A DNA stretch of 61,414 nt from Chthoniobacterales bacterium (GTDB taxonomy: Bacteria > Verrucomicrobiota > Verrucomicrobiia > Chthoniobacterales > UBA10450): assembly GCA_013815325.1 (NCBI GenBank), contig JACDGM010000007.1, positions 1 to 61,414 of the forward strand. The letters are read 5' to 3'. The position numbers and the translations under genes were made by a program. How positions within the stretch are numbered: position 1 is the stretch's first letter; each line of letters begins with the position of its first letter. Below are positions 42,901-60,343 of the stretch, piece by piece. The notes below the pieces were generated by a model. It did not search any database. It was not told where the DNA came from and worked only from the letters and a program-made list of their open reading frames with translations.

Positions 42901-43094
42901 TGCTCTTCGCCACCGGACCGGGCAGCGAAATTCAAAAGCCGCTCGCTGCCGTGGTTATCGGCGGTCTCAGTAGCTCCACGCTCCTGACGCTCTTCATTCT
43001 CCCGACGCTTTACAAAGTCTTCGAGCGCAAATCTCCGCTAACCTTGCATTCGGCCGCCGAATCTTCCGGCACGCTAAAACCCATGCGCATATGA
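39951..43094 (+). CDS. Heavy-metal RND pump, CzcA-like
   Basis: A 1047-residue inner-membrane transporter with 12 helices and two large periplasmic loops. TM4 contains I-G-I-G-M-M-V-D-G-A-V-V-M-V-E-N, where the D-G-A-V form is typical of CzcA/CnrA-type divalent cation pumps rather than the CusA D-A-A-I form at 56313-59471. Other hallmarks are F-P-D-V-T-N-V-Q-V and G-T-E-F-L-P-S-L-D-E-G. Likely substrates are Zn, Co, Cd or Ni. It overlaps the MFS gene by four bases. Confidence 0.93.
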   Translation: MINSILAFSVRQRMLVILGAVILAGFGLLALKQIPIDAFPDVTNVQVQLIATAGGMSPPEVEKLVTRPIEIQMSGLPRLTEVRSVSKIGIAVITIVFEDGVNDYFARQLVSERLQTARESLPAGVEVSLGPITTGLGEVFQYTLTSRDKRYDATELRTIQDYVVKPILRTVPGVTEVNSFGGFVKQYQVTVKPDRLTAFGISLEQVSEALQKNNANASGNFIESRSEQYVVRGIGLIKNVEDIEKIIVATHERTPIYVRDVADVAVGAELRQGAATMNANGEVVAGIVLMLKGASGRDVVTAVKEKLPAIQKALPKRVELVPYYDRTDLVKKAIHTVTTALEEGAIFVLIVLIVLLADVRSAIIVTLVLPLAALFTIIMMRWWGLTANLMSLGGLAIGIGMMVDGAVVMVENIHRHLTEKPDPGQRRGHLNKVETVLYAAKEVGRPIVFGIFIIIIVFLPLFTLQGFEGKMFSPLAFTISFGLLGSLLLSLTLVPMLSTFFLKQVPHDHDPFHISWLKHIYLVALKPCVRHPWRVVVAAVIALIGAFALVPFIGTEFLPSLDEGAVTIQVTRLPSISLAQSLDLETRLEEIVRGFPEVIDVVSKTGRADIASDPDSVNVSETLVTLKPREEWKSARSKEELVNQMREAIEKLPGASASFTQPIALRVDELVSGVKSAVAVKIFGDNLDLLAKNADSVAHVLSSVGGAADVNVEKVGGLAYLEIEIDRDKIARYGINVADVQDVIETAIGGKEVTKIYEGLKVFGLAVRFPEYARKDVDSIRQILISSPGGALIPMSQVANVHAVEGPGQISRESGQRRIVILCNVNGRDIGSFVHEAQRKIDAAVKLPSGYFMTWGGQFENQQRAMKRFAIVVPITIAAIFLLLFSSFNSVKQALLILSNIPFALIGGILALVIGGFNLSVSASVGFIALFGVAVLNGIVMVSYFNELRREGMDVELAVVKGAVLRLRPVLITAGVAALGLVPMLFATGPGSEIQKPLAAVVIGGLSSSTLLTLFILPTLYKVFERKSPLTLHSAAESSGTLKPMRI

Positions 43095-44272
43095 GTCGCC
43101 CTTGTTATTGGCACTTGGGCATTCTTGCGCTCTGCGGCTTTGTCACATCATTCGGCGCGCACATCGTTGCGACCAACTTGCCGCCCTATGCCGAGGCGAT
43201 TGGCGCCGGCGCGTTTGTTGTTGGACTTCTGATCGCGGTTTATGATTTCGCAGAGCTATTCGCGAAACCGCTCGCCGGTTTCATCGCGGACCGAAGCGGG
43301 ATGAAGCTGACTCTCAACGTGGGTCTCGGCATCTTTGTCCTCGGCTCCCTCCTTTTCCTGGTCATCAACCCGAAACTTTTATTGCTCGTGCGCTTCATTC
43401 AAGGACTCGGCGCGGCGGCCCTTTCAACCGTCTCAATCACGCTCGTCGCGAAGTATTTTGAAACCGGGCGGGGCAAGGCTTTTGGAATCTACAATGCAAT
43501 CAAAGGCGCGGGCTACGTCATTGCTCCAGCGCTCGGCGGATTTCTCATCCACGGCTACGGATTTGCCATGATCTTCATCGTTTCGGCGGGAGTCGGTCTC
43601 GTGGCATTGCTGCTTAGCCTGCTCCTGCCGCGCGACCAGAACAAAGACAACAACCTGAAAGATGATGACGACGACATGACGCTCCGGCAGTTCTTTCTCA
43701 TCTTCAAAGAACCCCGGTTGCTGCCGGTTTATGCCGTGATCGTGATCAATATGTTCATGGTTGGAATCCTCTTCGGGTTTCTGCCTGTCTATCTCCATGG
43801 CATCGGCTACACCCCGTTGCAATCTGGCACTGCGGTTAGCGCGGCGACGCTCAGTTATCTACTCGTGCAGCCACTCGCTGGTTACTTCGCGGATAGGATT
43901 TCTATCAGCGTGACAGTCATCGTCGGCCTGGCGCTCGCGGCCTTCGCGATCATCCTAACGACATTCACCACGGGGATTTTACTTCTCGCGATCATCGTTG
44001 TCGCTGGTCTCGGAGTCGGAACCGTCTGGACAAATTGTGATGCGCTGGTCGGTGCGCTCGCAGAAAAGAAGAAGCTCGGTGCAAGCATGGGTGCCGCGCA
44101 ATCATTCAAGGAATTCGGCGACATGGTTGGGCCACTGCTTGTCGGTCTGCTTACGCAGCTTTATGGCGTCCGGGTTGGTTTTGTGAGCTGCGGCGTGCTC
44201 GCGATGATTTGTCTCGTGCTCGTCGTTAAGTCCGACGCACTGCGAAGTTCGAGAGCTCATGCACGTGCTTAA
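43091..44272 (+). CDS. MFS transporter
   Basis: A 393-residue, 12-helix protein with the MFS A-like motif G-F-I-A-D-R-S-G-M-K (residues 61-70) and a second repeat copy G-Y-F-A-D-R-I-S. An acidic loop of D and N residues (D-Q-N-K-D-N-N-L-K-D-D-D-D-D) separates the two halves. Its start (ATGA) overlaps the CzcA-like stop, so it is translated with the pump genes and may export a metal, metal complex or drug. The substrate cannot be deduced. Confidence 0.85.
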   Translation: MSRPCYWHLGILALCGFVTSFGAHIVATNLPPYAEAIGAGAFVVGLLIAVYDFAELFAKPLAGFIADRSGMKLTLNVGLGIFVLGSLLFLVINPKLLLLVRFIQGLGAAALSTVSITLVAKYFETGRGKAFGIYNAIKGAGYVIAPALGGFLIHGYGFAMIFIVSAGVGLVALLLSLLLPRDQNKDNNLKDDDDDMTLRQFFLIFKEPRLLPVYAVIVINMFMVGILFGFLPVYLHGIGYTPLQSGTAVSAATLSYLLVQPLAGYFADRISISVTVIVGLALAAFAIILTTFTTGILLLAIIVVAGLGVGTVWTNCDALVGALAEKKKLGASMGAAQSFKEFGDMVGPLLVGLLTQLYGVRVGFVSCGVLAMICLVLVVKSDALRSSRAHARA

Positions 44273-44350
44273 CTGTTTCGTCGATCTCGCTTCACGCGCC
44301 GGGCATTGGGGCTACCTGGCCGTGTTCGCCGCCGTGTTGCTTGAATGCCA
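44259..44350 (+). pseudogene. DedA-family membrane protein, 5' fragment cut by methyltransferase repeat copy 1
   Basis: Overlapping the MFS stop, the frame reads MHVLNCFVDLASRAGHWGYL then A-V-F-A-A-V-L-L-E-C-Q. This is the start of DedA proteins (G-x-W-G-Y-L-x-V-F-x-x-x-x-L-E-C, next expected P-x-L-P-G-E). At 44351 it switches abruptly to the methyltransferase repeat and stops soon after. The original would have been about 200 residues. The clean junction is strong evidence that the repeat came later. Confidence 0.75.
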
Positions 44351-44578
44351 GCATTGTTCATTTCCCTGGAGCAGCCCGCGGCGGCGATGGTGAAAGACGC
44401 CGCATCAGCCGGCTTCTACGAAAGCCCGAACGGGAAAAAATATGCGCGCCTGCAGTTGCTTACGATCGAGGCTCTCCTTGACGGCACGCAACGGGCCGAG
44501 CATCCGGATTACGAGCCGGACCTGAACTTCAAGAAGGCGAAAGCGGAAGCGGCGGGCGAGCAGCAGCCCCTAATTTGA
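44351..44578 (+). pseudogene. Methyltransferase 3'-end repeat, copy 1
   Basis: It encodes the last 75 or so residues of a Mod-like DNA methyltransferase: A-L-F-I-S-L-E-Q-P, A-G-F-Y-E-S-P-N-G-K-K-Y-A, R-L-Q-L-L-T-I-E-A-L and E-Q-Q-P-L-I with TGA. It is intact in frame but has no methylase core and no start. The left edge falls inside DedA. It is followed after about 190 bp by the glycosyltransferase gene. Confidence 0.85.
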
Positions 44579-44704: not shown

Positions 44705-44727
44705 GTTCCCAAACGGAGTTTGGGAAC
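44705..44727. repeat. Palindrome GTTCCCAAAC-GGA-GTTTGGGAAC
   Basis: Perfect 10-bp arms with a three-base loop upstream of the glycosyltransferase gene. A worn relative (TTCTCAAACAGTGTTTGGTAAC) lies at 50979-51000, directly before repeat copy 3, so this dyad also seems to be associated with the methyltransferase repeats. Confidence 0.8.
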
Positions 44728-44771
44728 AAGGGAACGAACGAGTGAAAGGAGGATCGTTGGGAACGAAGGAA

Positions 44772-46298
44772 ATGATGCGCGCGAACGTTTTCGCGAGGTG
44801 GAAGGCTGTCATTGCGATCGTGCTCCTGACAGTTGTCACGCGCTTGCCGTCGGTGCTGCATCCCAGGGCAATTGATGACGAGGCGATCTACGCGGTGGTT
44901 GCCAACGAGATCGTGGAAGGTGGGAAACCTTATGTTGACGCAGTGGAACGCAAACCGCCGCTCTTGTTCTGGACGTATGCCGGAGTGTTTGAGGTGGCGG
45001 GAGAATACAACTGGCGTGCGCTCCACGTCGTCGCGCTCCTGTGGACTCTTGCTACGATGGGCGGCCTGTATGTTATCGGCCGCGAGTTGTTCGACCGGCC
45101 TACGGGCCTGACCGCGGCGCTGCTTGCCAGCGTCTTCGGGAGCTTCGCGACTTGGAAGAATCTCGCCTTCAACGGCGAGATTATGATGAACCTGCCTCTG
45201 GTCTGGGCGTGGGCGATCGGCTTGGGGCGGAGCCACTCAAGGTTTCGACCGGAGCTGCTCGCGGCGGGCGCGCTGCTCGGCACTGCCTTTTTGCTTAAGC
45301 AGCCTGGTGCCATCGCCGCAGTGCCATTAGCGATCTACCTGCTTCTGCCCAGCTATCGCAGGAGCCGCGGTCGAGCCAAAGGCGAATCGGTGGCACAAGC
45401 CGCGATCCTGACGGCGGGTTTTCTCGGGGCTTTGGCGTCTGTGGCGACGATTCTCGCTTATCAAGGCATCTTGCGCGAGGCATCCTATTGGACGGTGGCC
45501 GATCATACCGTGCCGCATGTGTTTTGGGAGAAGGGCATCATGCAGTCGCTGAGCTTTGCGGCGATCTGCTTGCCATTGCTCATCGGCACTGCTCTGGCGT
45601 TGCGCGGCGAAGGGGATCTTTGGGCGGACAAGACGGCGGAGAGAATCGCGCTCTTCGGGTTGCTCGGAGCATCGATGATCGGAGCGGCAGCGGGCGCGCG
45701 ATTCTACCCGCACTACTATATCCAGCTGCTCCCGCCGCTCGTGCTCCTGGCGGCTCCCGCGTATGCGGCAGTGTGGCGACAAAAGGTGCAACCGCGTTGG
45801 TGGATGCCAGGACCGTTGATCATGCAGACTTGGCTGGCCTTGACCGTCGTTGCGTTTTTCGTTCTTCACTGGCAAGGTCTGGCCGCGCGACGCCAACCAA
45901 CAGTAGCCGGACGCTACCTCGCGAAGAACTCGGCGCCCAACGACCGGATTTTCGTCTGGGGACAGTTCCCAGAAATCTATCTTGATGCGGGCCGCCGGCC
46001 CGCATCCCGCTACATCGCGACCTTTCCGTTGACCGGCTATGTTTTCGGCGGGCGAGTGCCAGGCTTGAACACGCACGACCGTATCCGACTCGGAGTCTGG
46101 GACAAGCTGGCAGTGGATTTTGCCTTGCATCCGCCCGAGTACGTTATCGACACGGAAGCCGGTCCCGAGGCGCTTTATCCGATCCGGAATTTTCCAAGAT
46201 TAGCCGGACTGCTGGAGCGAGGATATCAAGCGACTGCGTGGACGCCGGAGGGGGTGATCTTTCACAAACGCTCCGGTGATCTTGCTGTGCCGAAGTAA
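44772..46298 (+). CDS. Membrane glycosyltransferase, GT39/ArnT-like
   Basis: About 508 residues from ATG 44772 (MMRANVFARWKAVIAI). N-terminal helix, then the catalytic loop with D-D-E-A-I-Y-A (acidic pair of PMT/ArnT enzymes) and further helices such as A-A-L-L-A-S-V-F-G-S-F. K-P-P-L-L-F-W, ahead of the second helix, is also family-like. It probably transfers a sugar from a lipid-phosphate donor to a periplasmic acceptor. Its tie to the metal genes is only positional. An upstream start at 44742 overlaps the palindrome region and is less likely. Confidence 0.82.
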   Translation: MMRANVFARWKAVIAIVLLTVVTRLPSVLHPRAIDDEAIYAVVANEIVEGGKPYVDAVERKPPLLFWTYAGVFEVAGEYNWRALHVVALLWTLATMGGLYVIGRELFDRPTGLTAALLASVFGSFATWKNLAFNGEIMMNLPLVWAWAIGLGRSHSRFRPELLAAGALLGTAFLLKQPGAIAAVPLAIYLLLPSYRRSRGRAKGESVAQAAILTAGFLGALASVATILAYQGILREASYWTVADHTVPHVFWEKGIMQSLSFAAICLPLLIGTALALRGEGDLWADKTAERIALFGLLGASMIGAAAGARFYPHYYIQLLPPLVLLAAPAYAAVWRQKVQPRWWMPGPLIMQTWLALTVVAFFVLHWQGLAARRQPTVAGRYLAKNSAPNDRIFVWGQFPEIYLDAGRRPASRYIATFPLTGYVFGGRVPGLNTHDRIRLGVWDKLAVDFALHPPEYVIDTEAGPEALYPIRNFPRLAGLLERGYQATAWTPEGVIFHKRSGDLAVPK

Positions 46299-46320: not shown

Positions 46321-46473
46321 GTGAACCAGCCTTACTACGACGACAATTTGCAGGTGCTGCGGGAACACATGGCGGATGAGTCGGTAGACCTGATCTATCT
46401 CGATCCGCCGTTTAACTCGAATCGCGATTACAACCTGCTCTTCAAGTCACCGAAAGGAGTCACGAGCGGCTAG
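46321..46473 (+). pseudogene. DNA methyltransferase 5' fragment
   Basis: From GTG 46321 the frame reads V-N-Q-P-Y-Y-D-D-N-L-Q-V-L-R-E-H-M, then V-D-L-I-Y-L-D-P-P-F-N-S-N and L-L-F-K-S-P-K-G, ending at TAG 46471-46473. This is the N-terminus of the N4/N6 methyltransferases whose catalytic motif is D-P-P-[FY]. It is truncated after 50 residues. It is the only 5' fragment found against five 3' fragments, and probably the front part of the same gene family. Confidence 0.8.
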
Positions 46474-46585
46474 GTGCCGGCGAATCCGCTCGCCGAACTG
46501 TTCGCGATCAGATCAGCGTCTGCTGCTCCGCGTCGCTCTCGGAGGAGTTGTGAAACGATGCCTCCTCAATACCTTCACCGGGGCC

Positions 46586-47834: not shown

Positions 47835-48276
47835 AGTTAACTAGTTGCAGTGGCGGGCGGTGTCGCTCGTGGAAGCGCAGCCGTTCCAGCAAAGAAGAAG
47901 GCGCAAATGCCGGCATCGATGGCGTAAAGTTCTTTCGCCATCTCGACCGCAAGGAAGTGCGCAAGATCGCGGTGAGCGTGAAGGGCGGCGGGATCAAGCC
48001 CGATGACGTGCGTGCACTTAGTCATGTCCGTGAGCGAGAAGGCGGATATGGCATTGTTTATTTCCCTGGAGCAGGCGACGGCGGCGATGGTGAAGGACGC
48101 CCCATCAGTCGGCTTCTACGAAAGCCCGAACGGGAAAAATATGCGCGCCTGCGGTTGCTTACGATCGAGGCTCTCCTTGATGGCACGCAACGGGCCGAGC
48201 ATCCGGATTACGAGCCGGATCTGATTTCAAGAAGGCGAGAGCGGAAGCGGCGGGCGAGCAGCAGTCGCTGATTTAA
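47835..48276 (+). pseudogene. Methyltransferase 3'-end repeat, copy 2 (longest)
   Basis: The longest copy, covering about the last 145 residues: V-S-L-V-E-A-Q-P-F-Q, G-I-D-G-V-K-F-F, V-K-G-G-G-I-K-P-D-D-V-R-A-L-S-H-V, A-L-F-I-S-L-E-Q and the shared tail. It has at least two frameshifts (near 48140 and 48225), so it is inactive. It ends at TAA 48274-48276 and is followed by the arsenic operon on the opposite strand. Confidence 0.82.
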
Positions 48277-48305: not shown

Positions 48306-48701
48306 CTATTTCAGATCAGCCAGTGTGGCGCGCACCTTTTGCTCGATGAGATCGCGCACCTGGTTGAATTCGGCTGGTGGAAGGTTCTTAGGGTCGGGTA
48401 TCTGCCAGCCCGCCCGGCACCTGGCTCTCACGACCGGGCACGAGTCTCCGCAACCCATTGTCGCAACGAAATCGTATTCCACCTGCGGGATGTCATCGAG
48501 CGACTTGGAGCCGTGGGTGGATAGGTCATAGCCAACCTCCCGCATCGCTGCGACTGCTTTCGGGTTTACTACACCGGATGGTTGCGATCCGGCACTGTAG
48601 GCTTCCACTGCAGCGCCGCCATGGATTCGCGCGAAGGCTTCCGCCATTTGGCTCCGGTTGGAATTCTCGACACAGACAAAAAGGAGGCGTTTCTTTGTCA
48701 T
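48306..48701 (-). CDS. arsC: Arsenate reductase, LMW-phosphatase type
   Basis: From ATG 48701 the 131-residue product carries the P-loop V-C-V-E-N-S-N-R-S-Q (nucleophilic Cys at about residue 10) and the two redox Cys in A-T-M-G-C-G-D-S-C-P. It reduces arsenate to arsenite, probably with thioredoxin. Its start overlaps the GNAT stop by four bases (ATGA). Last gene of the arsenic operon. Confidence 0.93.
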   Translation of the reverse strand: MTKKRLLFVCVENSNRSQMAEAFARIHGGAAVEAYSAGSQPSGVVNPKAVAAMREVGYDLSTHGSKSLDDIPQVEYDFVATMGCGDSCPVVRARCRAGWQIPDPKNLPPAEFNQVRDLIEQKVRATLADLK

Positions 48702-49147
48702 GCAACGTCTCTCGCCATCGGTGTTGCACCCGAAATATCTTCCCATCCGTCCCGAAGCCAAAACGCGTGCCCTCCGGGATTATCCTCGGCCACGAGGATG
48801 ATCGCCCGCACGATACCGGCCGCCCGCAGGCCTGCCATGCACTCGCCGACGAGCAATTTTGCGATGCCACACTCACGGTAAGCGGGCGCAACGGCGAGAT
48901 GATAAATGAATCCGCGACGGCCGTCGTGACCACATAGAACCGCGCCCGCGATCCTGGCACCGTCCAGGGCGACACGGCTGAGCCCGGGGTTGCGCGAGAG
49001 ATAGCGGCCGATTTCTTCCGGTGAGTCACCTTCTGCGATCTCCACCCCGTCGGCTTCCGCCCAGAGCTTCGCTATCAGCGGGTAGTCGGATACGAGCAGT
49101 TCGCGCGTTTGAATTCCAGAGGGCGCTTCGATCGGTGCGTCGTTCAT
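48698..49147 (-). CDS. GNAT acetyltransferase, ArsN-like
   Basis: A 149-residue protein (MNDAPIEAPSGIQTRELLVS) with the GNAT motif A-V-A-P-A-Y-R-E-C-G-I-A-K-L-L (acetyl-CoA loop; R/Q-x-x-G-x-A) and N-P-G-G-H-A-F-W. ArsN-type enzymes detoxify arsinothricin or related organoarsenicals; the location between aqpS and arsC makes this a natural guess, though other GNAT substrates are possible. Stop and start overlap with neighbours on both sides, so expression is tightly coupled. Confidence 0.8.
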   Translation of the reverse strand: MNDAPIEAPSGIQTRELLVSDYPLIAKLWAEADGVEIAEGDSPEEIGRYLSRNPGLSRVALDGARIAGAVLCGHDGRRGFIYHLAVAPAYRECGIAKLLVGECMAGLRAAGIVRAIILVAEDNPGGHAFWLRDGWEDISGATPMARDVA

Positions 49148-49862
49148 GTCGCCCTCTCCAATGCGGACGTATCGCAACAACCCCTCTCGCGCACGCAAAT
49201 GCAAAGGGGCACTGCCAGCAATGCCCCCGCGACCGGAGCTATAAGGTAAATCCACAAGGACGTGAAATGACCCGCGACCAGGGCCGGAGCGAGTGAGCGC
49301 GCGGGGTTCATCGAAGCGCCGCAAATCGGGCCGGCGAACATGGCTTCGAGTGCAATCACGCCGCCGATGGCAATGCCAGCGGTTATGCCTTTCTCCTTCG
49401 CGCCTAGAGAGACATTGAGAATAACGAGCATAAGAAGCGCGGTGAGTAGGAACTCCAGGCCGAACGACTGCAGCGCGCTGCCTGCGGGCAGAGTGATCCC
49501 TAACAATCGATCAGTGGGAAAAAGCAGGTGCAAAAGCGCACTTGCCGCAATCGCGCCCGCGATCTGGCTCACGATGAAACGCATACCCTCTGCTGCCGGC
49601 ATTCGGCAGCGGCGACGAAGCCAATAGTAACAGCAGGATTAATGTGGGCGCCGGAGATGTCCCCGAAGGTATAAATCATCGCCATCACGATGAGGCCGAA
49701 TGTGAGAGCAATGCCGACGTGTGAGACCGTTCCTCCCGCAATGTCGTTAATGACGATCGCGCCCGTGCCCGCGAAGACGAGGGCGAAGGTGCCGAGGAAT
49801 TCCGAAATGCATCTCTTGCTGGCGGGGCTCAGCGGGCGCTGTTGCTTAGGTCCAAATGTCAT
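49144..49862 (-). pseudogene. aqpS: Aquaglyceroporin AqpS-like, single-base frameshift
   Basis: A MIP-family channel in two frames. The first half from ATG 49862 ([20 protein letters not shown]) includes [11 protein letters not shown] and the first N-P-A box ([10 protein letters not shown]). The second half has the second box G-A-S-M-N-P-A-R-S and a last helix. The break is near 49600, where one base is missing between G-F-V-A-A and M-P-A-A-E-G. In known ars operons of this kind AqpS lets arsenite leave the cell; no ArsB/ACR3 gene is seen here. A good ribosome site (AGGAAG) supports 49862. Confidence 0.85.
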
Positions 49863-50019
49863 ATGACTTCCTAGAACGAGCAGCATCGTGACGGCAAGCG
49901 CTCCATAGCTCCAGCGGTTCGCTCCCGTTTGGAGACAGAGCCCGAACGTTACCAACGTCATCGTCATCTGAGCGCCACTGCGACACGTAAAACCCGATAG
50001 CTTGGGCGCGCTTCATTCG

Positions 50020-50373
50020 CTATGCGAGCAAGGCTCCATCCGGTGCGTCGGCCTTTGTGCGGAGCTTAGCGAGGGCGCGAAGATCACGTTTGAAGATGGA
50101 GTCTGTCTGCACGCAGTCCTGCAAGCACTTCAAGTTCGCCTGCAGCTCGGCATCGCGCTTCTTCGGCAACGAATAAATCATCCAATTTTGGTCGCGCTCC
50201 GCCACGACCATCCCCCTCTCGCGCAGGTAGGCGAGGTGCTTTGAAATCTTCACCTGCGGCTCATCGAGGATCTCCTGGAAATGACAGACACAGAGCGGCG
50301 TCTGACTTAGCAGATGGAGAATGCGCAGCCGGGTTGGATCGCAGAAGCATTGGTAGATTCGGATGAGATCCAT
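50020..50373 (-). CDS. arsR: ArsR-family metalloregulator
   Basis: From ATG 50373 the product (117 residues) has winged helix features: C-D-P-T-R-L-R-I-L-H-L-L, the metal motif L-C-V-C-H-F in the alpha-3 helix and K-I-S-K-H-L-A-Y-L-R. The C-x-C motif is the As(III)/Sb(III) sensing site of typical ArsR repressors. It probably represses this operon. It starts 7 bp after the DUF6428 gene. An upstream extension in frame to 50502 overlaps that gene and was rejected. Confidence 0.93.
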   Translation of the reverse strand: MDLIRIYQCFCDPTRLRILHLLSQTPLCVCHFQEILDEPQVKISKHLAYLRERGMVVAERDQNWMIYSLPKKRDAELQANLKCLQDCVQTDSIFKRDLRALAKLRTKADAPDGALLA

Positions 50374-50380
50374 GAGTGTG

Positions 50381-50857
50381 TTAGCAGCAGCTCGGGGCTG
50401 CTGCGGTCTCGGCAGTCTCTCCGCTTCCACAGCCTTCGCCATCGATCCCGCACTTCTCCTTCGCGAGACAATCGGTGTGCTTCTCTCCGAGCTGCAGCTC
50501 AATCTGTTCGCCCGCTACTCGCGCCGTCGTGACCGGATATTGCGCCACCACACAGCAGTCATACTCCACTTCCACATCGAGATCGTCGTGCGGGAGGACC
50601 TGCGCACCCAGATCGAGGATCTTCGCAAAAGTCCCAGCATCCAGGCGATGCTCAACGTCGTCTGCCACATAGGTCCCAAGCAGGCATGTATCGGCTTTAT
50701 CGTGCAGCGTCCCACCGCAGTCGATAAAGCGTTTTGTCACATGGCCGACTTCGGTGATGTGGAAATGCGCGGCGACCTGATCGCCATCGGGCAAAATAAA
50801 ACGCGGATAAGCCGAAGGATGTGAGCGGAGAATAGTTTTCAGTTCGTTAAGCTTCAT
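50381..50857 (-). CDS. DUF6428 protein with Cys-rich tail
   Basis: A 158-residue product from ATG 50857 (MKLNELKTILRSHPSAYPRF). The family core is P-D-G-D-Q-V-A-A-H-F-H-I-T-E-V-G and F-I-D-C-G-G-T-L-H. The tail is Cys-rich (C-L-A-K-E-K-C, E-G-C-G-S-G-E, A-P-S-C-C), a plausible arsenite or metal site not seen in the standard family members I recall. It is first in the arsenic operon, so it may be a metalloid-binding or sensory accessory protein. Function unproven. Confidence 0.7.
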   Translation of the reverse strand: MKLNELKTILRSHPSAYPRFILPDGDQVAAHFHITEVGHVTKRFIDCGGTLHDKADTCLLGTYVADDVEHRLDAGTFAKILDLGAQVLPHDDLDVEVEYDCCVVAQYPVTTARVAGEQIELQLGEKHTDCLAKEKCGIDGEGCGSGETAETAAAPSCC

Positions 50858-51003
50858 AACAGCGCGAGCATATACCGGCATCGGCATATTCGTCAAGCCG
50901 CCTGCTCGAAGTGAGCTGAGCGTTCGTTAGTCGCAGGCGCTGCGATGACCGGCGACAATGGGAGTGGGGACACGTGCGTTCTCAAACAGTGTTTGGTAAC
51001 GAG

Positions 51004-51171
51004 GGCTTCTACGAAACCCAAACGGGAAAAAATATCCGCGCCTGCAGTTGCTTACGATCGAGGCTCTCCTTGATGGCACGCAACGGGCCGAGCATCCGGA
51101 TTACGAGCCCGATCTGAACTTCAAAGAAGGCGAGAGCGGAAGCCGACTTGGAGCAGCAGTCACTGATCTGA
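51004..51171 (+). pseudogene. Methyltransferase 3'-end repeat, copy 3
   Basis: Begins at the codons for G-F-Y-E and covers only the last 55 or so residues with several small changes, ending at TGA 51169-51171. It is preceded by a worn copy of the GTTCCCAAAC/GTTTGGGAAC palindrome and followed after about 75 bp by the small leader gene of the CDF module. Confidence 0.8.
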
Positions 51172-51245
51172 AGACCAGCCAATAGGTCGTTCCGCATCGG
51201 ACCATCCCGTTGACGATCGGAAAAATTGGCCTATTCCTTACGCGG

Positions 51246-51569: not shown

Positions 51570-51696
51570 AGCCGCCCAGCGCAGCTGCGCCTTCGCGCCG
51601 CGCTTTTTTTTGTTGAGGCGCGCCCCGTGCGCTCGTTCCCGACTTGCGTGGGTTGCGCAAAAGTTCCCTCAGGACGCTAACCAGGAAAAACCAATT

Positions 51697-52647
51697 TATG
51701 CAACACGACCACGACCACCACGACCCGACGACTACGATCACAGCCACGCCTCGCATGCTGGCCACGCGCACGCGCCGAAGTCATTCGGACTCGCCTTTGC
51801 CATTGGAGTAAGTCTCAACTTCGGCTTCGTCATCCTCGAAGTGGTCTTCGGCCTCTTCGCCCACTCATTGGCTTTGGTGGCAGACGCCGGGCACAACATG
51901 GGTGACGTGCTGGGTCTGCTGCTCGCGTGGGGAGCGGCCGCGTTGGCGCAGACGAAGGCAACCGATAAGCGGACTTACGGGCTTCGCTCTTCTTCCATTC
52001 TCGCCGCACTTTTTAACGCCATCTTTCTTCTCATCTCCGTAGGAGCTATCGCGTGGGAAGCGATACGCCGCTTCGGTGACCCGACTGAGGTGGCCGGCAA
52101 AACCGTGGTCTGGGTTTCACTGGTAGGCATTGCGATTAATACCGCGACTGCGCTTCTGTTCATGTCCGGCCGGAAGGGGGATCTAAATATCAGGGCGGCA
52201 TTCATGCACATGGCGGCCGACGCCGGAGTTTCCGCGGGAGTGGTGGTTGCCGGCATCATTATCATCATGACGGGACTGCACTGGATAGATCCGGTGATTA
52301 GCTTGATCATCGCAGTCGTAATCGTGTGGGGCACGTGGGGTTTGCTGCGCGATTCGACTAATCTCGCTCTGCAGGCCGTCCCGGAAGAAATCGATCTGCC
52401 CAAAGTAAGAGACTATCTGTGCGGGCTTCCGGAAGTGAGCACGGTGCACGACCTGCACGTCTGGCCGATGAGCACCACGGAAACCGCGCTGACGGCTCAC
52501 CTCGAGATGCCGGGTGCGCATCCCGGCGACGCTTTTCTCCACGAAGTCTGTGAGCATTTGCATGAAGAATTCACCATTCAGCATTCTACCATCCAGATCG
52601 AGCGCGATGCGCGCGCGTGCGCCCTGGCTCCCGATCAGGTAGTGTGA
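51697..52647 (+). CDS. CDF-family cation transporter, possibly frameshifted in its His-rich head
   Basis: The main frame has H-S-H-A-S-H-A-G-H-A-H, then F-G-L-A-F-A-I-G-V-S-L, the metal pair motif A-D-A-G-H-N-M-G-D and A-A-F-M-H-M-A-A-D-A-G-V, as in ZitB/CzcD proteins, and ends with the C-terminal cytoplasmic domain (V-H-D-L-H-V-W). The only good start, ATG 51697 (M-Q-H-D-H-D-H-H-D), is in another frame. Adding one base after H-H-D (near 51724) would join both. So either there is an indel or translation starts elsewhere. It exports Zn, Cd or Co. Confidence 0.85.
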   Translation, partial: YATRPRPPRPDDYDHSHASHAGHAHAPKSFGLAFAIGVSLNFGFVILEVVFGLFAHSLALVADAGHNMGDVLGLLLAWGAAALAQTKATDKRTYGLRSSSILAALFNAIFLLISVGAIAWEAIRRFGDPTEVAGKTVVWVSLVGIAINTATALLFMSGRKGDLNIRAAFMHMAADAGVSAGVVVAGIIIIMTGLHWIDPVISLIIAVVIVWGTWGLLRDSTNLALQAVPEEIDLPKVRDYLCGLPEVSTVHDLHVWPMSTTETALTAHLEMPGAHPGDAFLHEVCEHLHEEFTIQHSTIQIERDARACALAPDQVV

Positions 52648-52702
52648 ACCATGGCGAGTATCTCAGGCGTTCAAGGGGGCGAGCCATCTTTCGCGCCGGC
52701 AC

Positions 52703-52995
52703 GGGCGGCGGGATCAAGCCCGATGACGTGCGCGCACTTAGTCATGTCCGTGAACGCGAGAAGGCGGATATCGCATTGTTCATTTCCCTGGAGCAGCCGA
52801 CGGCCGCGATGGTAAAGGATGCCGCATCAGCCGGGTTCTACGAAAGCCCGAACGGGAAAAAATATGCGCGCCTGCAGTTGCTTACGATCGACGCTCCCCT
52901 TGATAACACGCGACGGGCCGAGCATCCCGATTACGAGCCGGAACTTCAAAAAGGCCAGAGCGGAAGCGGCGGGCGAGCAGCAGCCTCTGATCTGA
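52703..52995 (+). pseudogene. Methyltransferase 3'-end repeat, copy 4
   Basis: It begins at the codons for G-G-G-I-K-P-D-D-V-R-A-L-S-H-V, continues A-L-F-I-S-L-E-Q-P, F-Y-E-S-P-N-G-K and R-L-Q-L-L-T-I, and ends with P-L-I and TGA. It has a 3-base-odd loss near 52945, so the tail is frameshifted. The right edge coincides with the broken end of a small exported-protein gene on the other strand. Confidence 0.82.
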
Positions 52996-59494: not shown

Positions 59495-60166
59495 GTGGCT
59501 GATACAGGAGAACCCACACGAACGGCGATTAGCTTTTCGCCGGAGCGTAGCGCGGATGTGCGGTTGGCGCTTTCGCTTACCTACATCACCCTTGCCTGGA
59601 TGACGATCGAAGGGGCCGCTGCGCTTCTTCTCGGGTGGGCTTCGAAAAGTCTGCTGCTGGAAGCGTTTGGTATCGATAGCATCGTCGAGCTGTTCAGTGC
59701 AGGAGTGCTCTGGTGGCGACTAAAAGTGGAAGCCGGCGGCTCAGCGGATGAAGCGCGCATCGAAGTGGTGGAACGGAAAGCGGCCTGCTGGGTCGGTTAC
59801 TCGCTTTACGCGCTCGTAGCGTATGTCGCCTTTAATTCCGCCTATGGTCTGTTCGTAGTCGAACGTGTGACCAATACGCATGAAAGCGCGTGGGGTATCG
59901 TCATAGGCTTGGTCGCCAAAGTCGGCATGCCGATTCTCGCGGGCTACAAATTGCGGGTCGCGGCGCGCCTGAACTCGCGCGCGCTGCGAGCCGACGCGAT
60001 GGAAGCGATCACGTGCGGGTATCTGTCGATCGTCCTGATGGTGGGGCTCGCCGCGACCACGTTATTCGGCTGGTGGTGGCTCGATAGCGTCGCCGCGCTC
60101 GCACTCATGCCCTTCATAATTAAGGAAGGTCGCGCGGCGATTCGTGGCGAGCGTGCATGCTGCTAG
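59495..60166 (+). CDS. Cation transporter, CDF-like, 223 aa
   Basis: From GTG 59495. About six membrane segments: Y-I-T-L-A-W-M-T-I-E-G, F-G-I-D-S-I-V-E-L-F-S-A-G-V, G-Y-S-L-Y-A-L-V-A-Y, W-G-I-V-I-G-L-V-A-K and others. The D-S-I-V-E motif replaces the usual D-x-x-x-D of CDF TM2 and A-L-R-A-D-A-M-E-A occurs in TM5, as in the CDF/TMEM163-like group. No His-rich loop and no C-terminal cytoplasmic domain. 23 bp downstream of cusA. The metal is unknown. Confidence 0.75.
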   Translation: MADTGEPTRTAISFSPERSADVRLALSLTYITLAWMTIEGAAALLLGWASKSLLLEAFGIDSIVELFSAGVLWWRLKVEAGGSADEARIEVVERKAACWVGYSLYALVAYVAFNSAYGLFVVERVTNTHESAWGIVIGLVAKVGMPILAGYKLRVAARLNSRALRADAMEAITCGYLSIVLMVGLAATTLFGWWWLDSVAALALMPFIIKEGRAAIRGERACC

Positions 60167-60343
60167 CGCATCCTCGGCTTCTACGAAAGCCCGAACGAGA
60201 AGAAGTATTCGCGCCTGCAGTTGCTTACGATCGACGGTCTCCTTGATGGCACGCAACGCGCCGAGCATCCGGATTACGAGCCGGATCTGAATTTCAAGAA
60301 GGCGAGAGCGGAAGCGGCGGGCGAGCAGCAAACGCTGATTTAG
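60167..60343 (+). pseudogene. Methyltransferase 3'-end repeat, copy 5
   Basis: Starts at the base after the stop of the cation transporter and covers the final 57 or so residues: G-F-Y-E-S-P-N-E-K-K-Y, R-L-Q-L-L-T-I, E-H-P-D-Y-E-P-D-L-N-F-K-K, ending T-L-I and TAG. It stays in one open frame. The CDF gene begins about 60 bp later. Confidence 0.82.

Follow-up and report, generated by a model that had tools for sequence, protein, structure and literature searches.

The window analysed here, 61,414 nucleotides in length, constitutes the whole of contig C34 of a metagenome-assembled genome (4.15 Mb, 94%-complete; hereafter G000) of a soil bacterium belonging to the Chthoniobacterales. In the GTDB collection the named genomes nearest to it come from soil and belong to Chthoniobacterales/Verrucomicrobiota. 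The modules of its metal/arsenic region follow one another in the order CusCBA-MFS-dedA stub, glycosyltransferase, an unknown ORF, arsenic module, cation facilitator, a second CusCBA with a facilitator and a third facilitator, and the C-terminal ends (hereafter referred to as tails) of a DNA methyltransferase (MTase) lie in between. The left part of the window carries two more direct-repeat pairs, at 4068-4277/7373-7581 and 220-391/1246-1417 (88-96% and 91% identical, respectively).

The last intact gene of the first CusCBA-like operon encodes an MFS transporter (43091-44272, + strand; Pfam PF07690, E 1e-63), with homologues in G009 and G013 that are 76-79% identical. In a search of 384 genomes of the class with the MFS sequence the own genome was the sole match at E 1e-90, and a search of plasmids yielded proteins at most 37% identical and nothing closer. 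The ATG of a dedA-type (VTT/PAP2) gene lies at 44259 within the end of the MFS gene, the overlap with the MFS ORF being 14 bp. Only a 5' stub of this gene, about 31 of ~474 codons, is present (44259-44350, + strand); its frame reads MHVLNCFVDLASRAGHWGYLAVFAAVLLECQ, the 31st codon being completed by base 44351. Over 27 residues the stub shares 48% identity with the N-terminus of a 474-aa protein of G009 (contig C30; E 7e-4, small database), in which VTT and PAP2 domains are predicted by Pfam and whose gene lies directly 3' of the MFS homologue. The GHWGYL-type start of the stub matches that of the G009 protein; the VTT domain itself is missing from the stub. G009 belongs to the same family as G000 and its MFS-DedA/PAP2 pair is intact, which supports the view that dedA was longer before being cut and bears out the cut proposed in the earlier note, which had suggested this comparison. 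The same note had suggested a search for the DedA remainder elsewhere in the genome; with the intact G009 protein as query, no cognate remainder was found to the right of the first tail or anywhere else in this genome (94% complete). The matches, all on other contigs, were distant paralogues with 28-48% identity, none of them a close copy of the stub.

At 44351 the DNA switches to the C-terminal end of the MTase, which runs to a stop codon at 44576-44578. This tail (copy 1; 44351-44578, + strand) comprises the last 75 codons and the stop. Homology to the other copies begins exactly at 44351 (GCATTGTTCATTTCCC), and the 20 bases to the left are part of the dedA frame and show no match to the repeat; the single precise junction at 44350 described in the earlier note is thus base-exact by the dedA frame and by the match to the other copies. 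No clear microhomology is seen at the joint, and a run of Ala-Leu-Phe codons common to DedA and the MTase was considered as a source of microhomology and dropped, the joint lacking one G expected for it. Neither a target duplication nor an element end was seen at the tails. The MTase tail is in frame with an ATG that lies within the dedA stub, and the resulting 77-aa ORF (44345-44578, + strand) might be translated together with the efflux operon. A palindromic repeat, TTCCCAAACGGAGTTTGGGAA, is present to the right of the tail at 44706-44730, with a weak relative at 50937-50999, to the left of the third tail.

The repeat itself corresponds to the 3' end of a gene for an N6/N4-MTase of phage type with an Mrr-like nuclease tail. 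Full-length MTase genes are intact in G024 and G048, both with PF01555 (N6_N4_Mtase) and that of G024 also with a C-terminal PF04471 (Mrr_cat). The G048 gene is located near a phage portal gene, and relatives are frequent in phages, among them sequences of 48% identity in Streptomyces phages and 45 IMG/VR contigs. The tails of the window and an N-terminal stub described below are homologous to a full-length PF01555 + PF04471 gene (tblastn to locus L037, and Pfam), which assigns them to the N6_N4 MTase-Mrr fusions. G000 has no full-length MTase of this family, all the copies of the window being broken; a full-length query retrieved start stub and tails only, the middle of the gene (codons ~72-396) being absent from G000.

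Five tails were identified, all on the + strand at 44-60 kb and between the metal/arsenic modules, with starts at 44351, 47848, 51003, 52695 and 60173. A PMT_2-type membrane glycosyltransferase gene (44742-46298, + strand; Pfam PF13231) separates the first tail from the MTase N-terminal stub (46321-46470, + strand), which begins exactly at the start codon, covers about codons 1-50 and is 84-88% identical at the amino acid level to the G024 MTase. At 34 bp past this stub lies a mini-tail on the opposite strand (46504-46542, - strand), which corresponds to the terminal 35-40 bp of an MTase from a second lineage (87.5% identity over 40 bp to the G030 tail). Copy 2 (47848-48276, + strand) is the longest (codons ~397-540) and is frameshifted; it and the N-terminal stub may represent one MTase locus with its middle replaced. 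The arsenic-type module follows (48306-50893, - strand), with LMWPc/ArsC-like, GNAT, ArsR-like and DUF6428 genes and a broken aquaporin-like gene (49144-49967, - strand), apparently split by a frameshift near 49570-49602. Sequence comparison places the frameshifted copy 3 at 51003-51173 and copy 4, carrying small deletions and also frameshifted, at 52695-52994 (both + strand), with a cation diffusion facilitator gene (51610-52647, + strand; Pfam PF01545, PF16916) in between. Copy 5 (60173-60343, + strand) is open up to the stop codon and starts only a few bases 3' of the end of a cation efflux gene (59495-60166, + strand; Pfam PF01545).

All the five tails stop at the MTase stop codon, and their left ends fall at differing codons except in copies 3 and 5, which start at the same Gly-Phe-Tyr codons. 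The DNA past the stop codons has essentially nothing in common among the copies, and the intergenic stretches beyond the tails share almost nothing, the sole resemblance being one of 34 bp between the right of the first tail and the left of the third. The tails do not have the organisation of a mobile repeat or insertion element, with defined ends on both sides and the target resuming on the far side, as their left ends differ and the DedA remainder is absent. A genome-wide search at E<=0.001 turned up no further tail copies. That all five should fall within 16 kb of the 4.15 Mb by chance is very unlikely, with a probability of about 4e-9 under uniform placement, which is a crude null for such clustering.

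The differences among the five tails are of the coding type, the variable columns at codon positions 1/2/3 numbering 7/10/28 (p=2e-4). The same third-position bias is the pattern between intact MTase genes, and it is present also in the frameshifted copies 3 and 4. As the differences lie mainly at third positions and the starts differ, the tails appear to derive from distinct MTase genes whose divergence took place while they still worked; on these codon statistics, most of the divergence was probably gained in working genes, and recent copying of a single dead tail is improbable. Persistence as selected small proteins was ruled out for the frameshifted copies 2, 3 and 4 (the last two of which nevertheless retain the third-position bias), while copies 1 and 5 are open in frame. 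The tails of the window are each other's closest relatives (85-96% identity, as against 68-83% to all others; bootstrap 86), a closeness that fits related alleles of one population, local paralogues or gene conversion.

Same-strand pairs of tails also flank modules in two congeners and in another genus: an arsenic module in G003 (contig C91), a CDF/Nramp module in G004 (C36) and a histidine kinase module in G030 (C335). The G003 module is homologous to the arsenic module of the window and has other outer neighbours; that of G004 has an Nramp gene alongside two facilitators. In neither G003 nor G004 are the two tails of a pair clearly closest to one another. No tail was found near DUF6428 homologues at ten other loci from relatives. 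Start stubs also occur directly behind host genes, as in another G003 contig (C81; L107:6022-6075), where an 18-codon MTase start stub overlaps the end of a large ORF. The tail-flanked modules and the clustering of the tails, small as the numbers are, support an association of MTase remnants with module borders; the tail search used the C-terminal end as query and is biased toward tails, a bias that the full-length search lessens and does not remove.

The boundary at 44350/44351 is probably a scar of the deletion or recombination type, in which the 5' end of dedA/PAP2 was fused to the 3' end of an adjoining phage-type MTase-Mrr gene, and one of five such scars, the tails of which probably served in the joining or swapping of modules. 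A joint of this kind is preferred to an insertion because the 3' part of DedA is missing. A longer MTase gene would once have stood beside dedA, which is probable because the divergence of the 5'-truncated ends bears the signature of purifying selection; the end of dedA and the start of the MTase gene would then have been lost together in a single deletion or recombination. The metal/arsenic island would thus have been built of separate modules, with MTase genes or their ends at the module borders and the 5' parts lost, the tails probably acting as homology stretches or breakable spots where modules were joined or swapped. The deletion event is not observed directly, as a scar-free orthologous locus was not found. 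The N-terminal stub and the opposite-strand mini-tail show that one simple scheme does not cover all the pieces, and the closeness of the window tails, which fits local duplication or gene conversion as well, counts against the deletion scheme.

The earlier note had placed the arrival of the repeat after the formation of the MFS-DedA pair. The part of this order concerning a once longer dedA holds, given G009, but the arrival of a repeat is not supported, there being no DedA remainder to its right and the copies being 5'-truncated MTase gene ends that diverged under purifying selection. The joint shows that dedA and the MTase are both older than the joint itself; which of the two came first is not recorded in it. 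A retrocopy or one-ended transposition was ruled out, as the target does not resume on the far side. An insertion of a truncated MTase repeat into dedA as a mobile piece, with a second deletion later removing the 3' part of DedA, would account for the presence in one region of several copies that are truncated 5' and share their 3' end, but it is quite unlikely in view of the absent remainder to the right of the first tail, the third-position-biased substitutions, by which a single dead tail was not the source of all the copies, their common strand and the lack of any visible target duplication or element end.

Local duplication, in which units of a module plus an MTase end underwent duplication or entered as circles through homologous recombination at a tail, leaving direct repeats around each cargo, would agree with the common strand, the clustering, the higher mutual identity with its modest grouping support and the tail-module-tail arrangement in three other genomes. 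It is nonetheless considered unlikely, since the third-position bias indicates that the genes diverged in a functional state, the paired tails of G003 and G004 are not clearly mutual nearest relatives and no cargo is duplicated as such. A metagenome-assembled genome with a repeat family also invites the suspicion that reads of different MTase copies were joined in assembly; this is very improbable because no two copies share an exact match longer than 63 bp, every copy, copy 1 included, has private substitutions, and similar tail-module structures recur in the three other genomes.

Restriction-modification genes are known as mobile genes tied to the rearrangement of genomes (PMC3031569, from the work of Kobayashi and colleagues, citing Nobusato 2000 and Furuta 2010). 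As in those systems, decayed MTase-type genes common in phages occur next to rearrangement joints; in the window, unlike those systems, the remnants are fragments only and recur at the borders of metal-resistance modules, and long target duplication is not seen. The pieces belong to the phage or orphan N6_N4 MTases with an Mrr-like C-terminus (PF01555 + PF04471; phrog_67), of which full-length relatives are found in G024, G048 and the IMG/VR contigs, but differ from them in that every copy of the window is broken and the genome has no full-length member. Tandem genomic islands, such as the SCC elements at rlmH, insert at a gene's 3' end, which is duplicated in the process. The repeated gene ends bounding cargo modules resemble such islands, whereas the copies of the window have differing left ends, are 170-430 bp long and have diverged as coding sequence, and no recombinase or attachment core was recognised on unsystematic inspection of their borders.

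The locus is thus a new example of the known kind of mobile, rearrangement-linked restriction-modification genes, essentially an ordinary rearrangement scar with a modest hint of a wider pattern. Codon-position statistics distinguish copies of a dead fragment from the ends of once-working genes, and with them the account of an arriving repeat becomes a readable scar. It is conceivable, as a speculative extension, that MTase gene ends in this Chthoniobacterales lineage act as portable homology, by which resistance and regulatory modules are excised and reinserted side by side through ordinary recombination, in the manner of cassettes and without a dedicated recombinase. If the tail-module-tail layout is general, it would suggest how soil Verrucomicrobiota put together resistance to metals and arsenic in the absence of the usual transposons or integrons.
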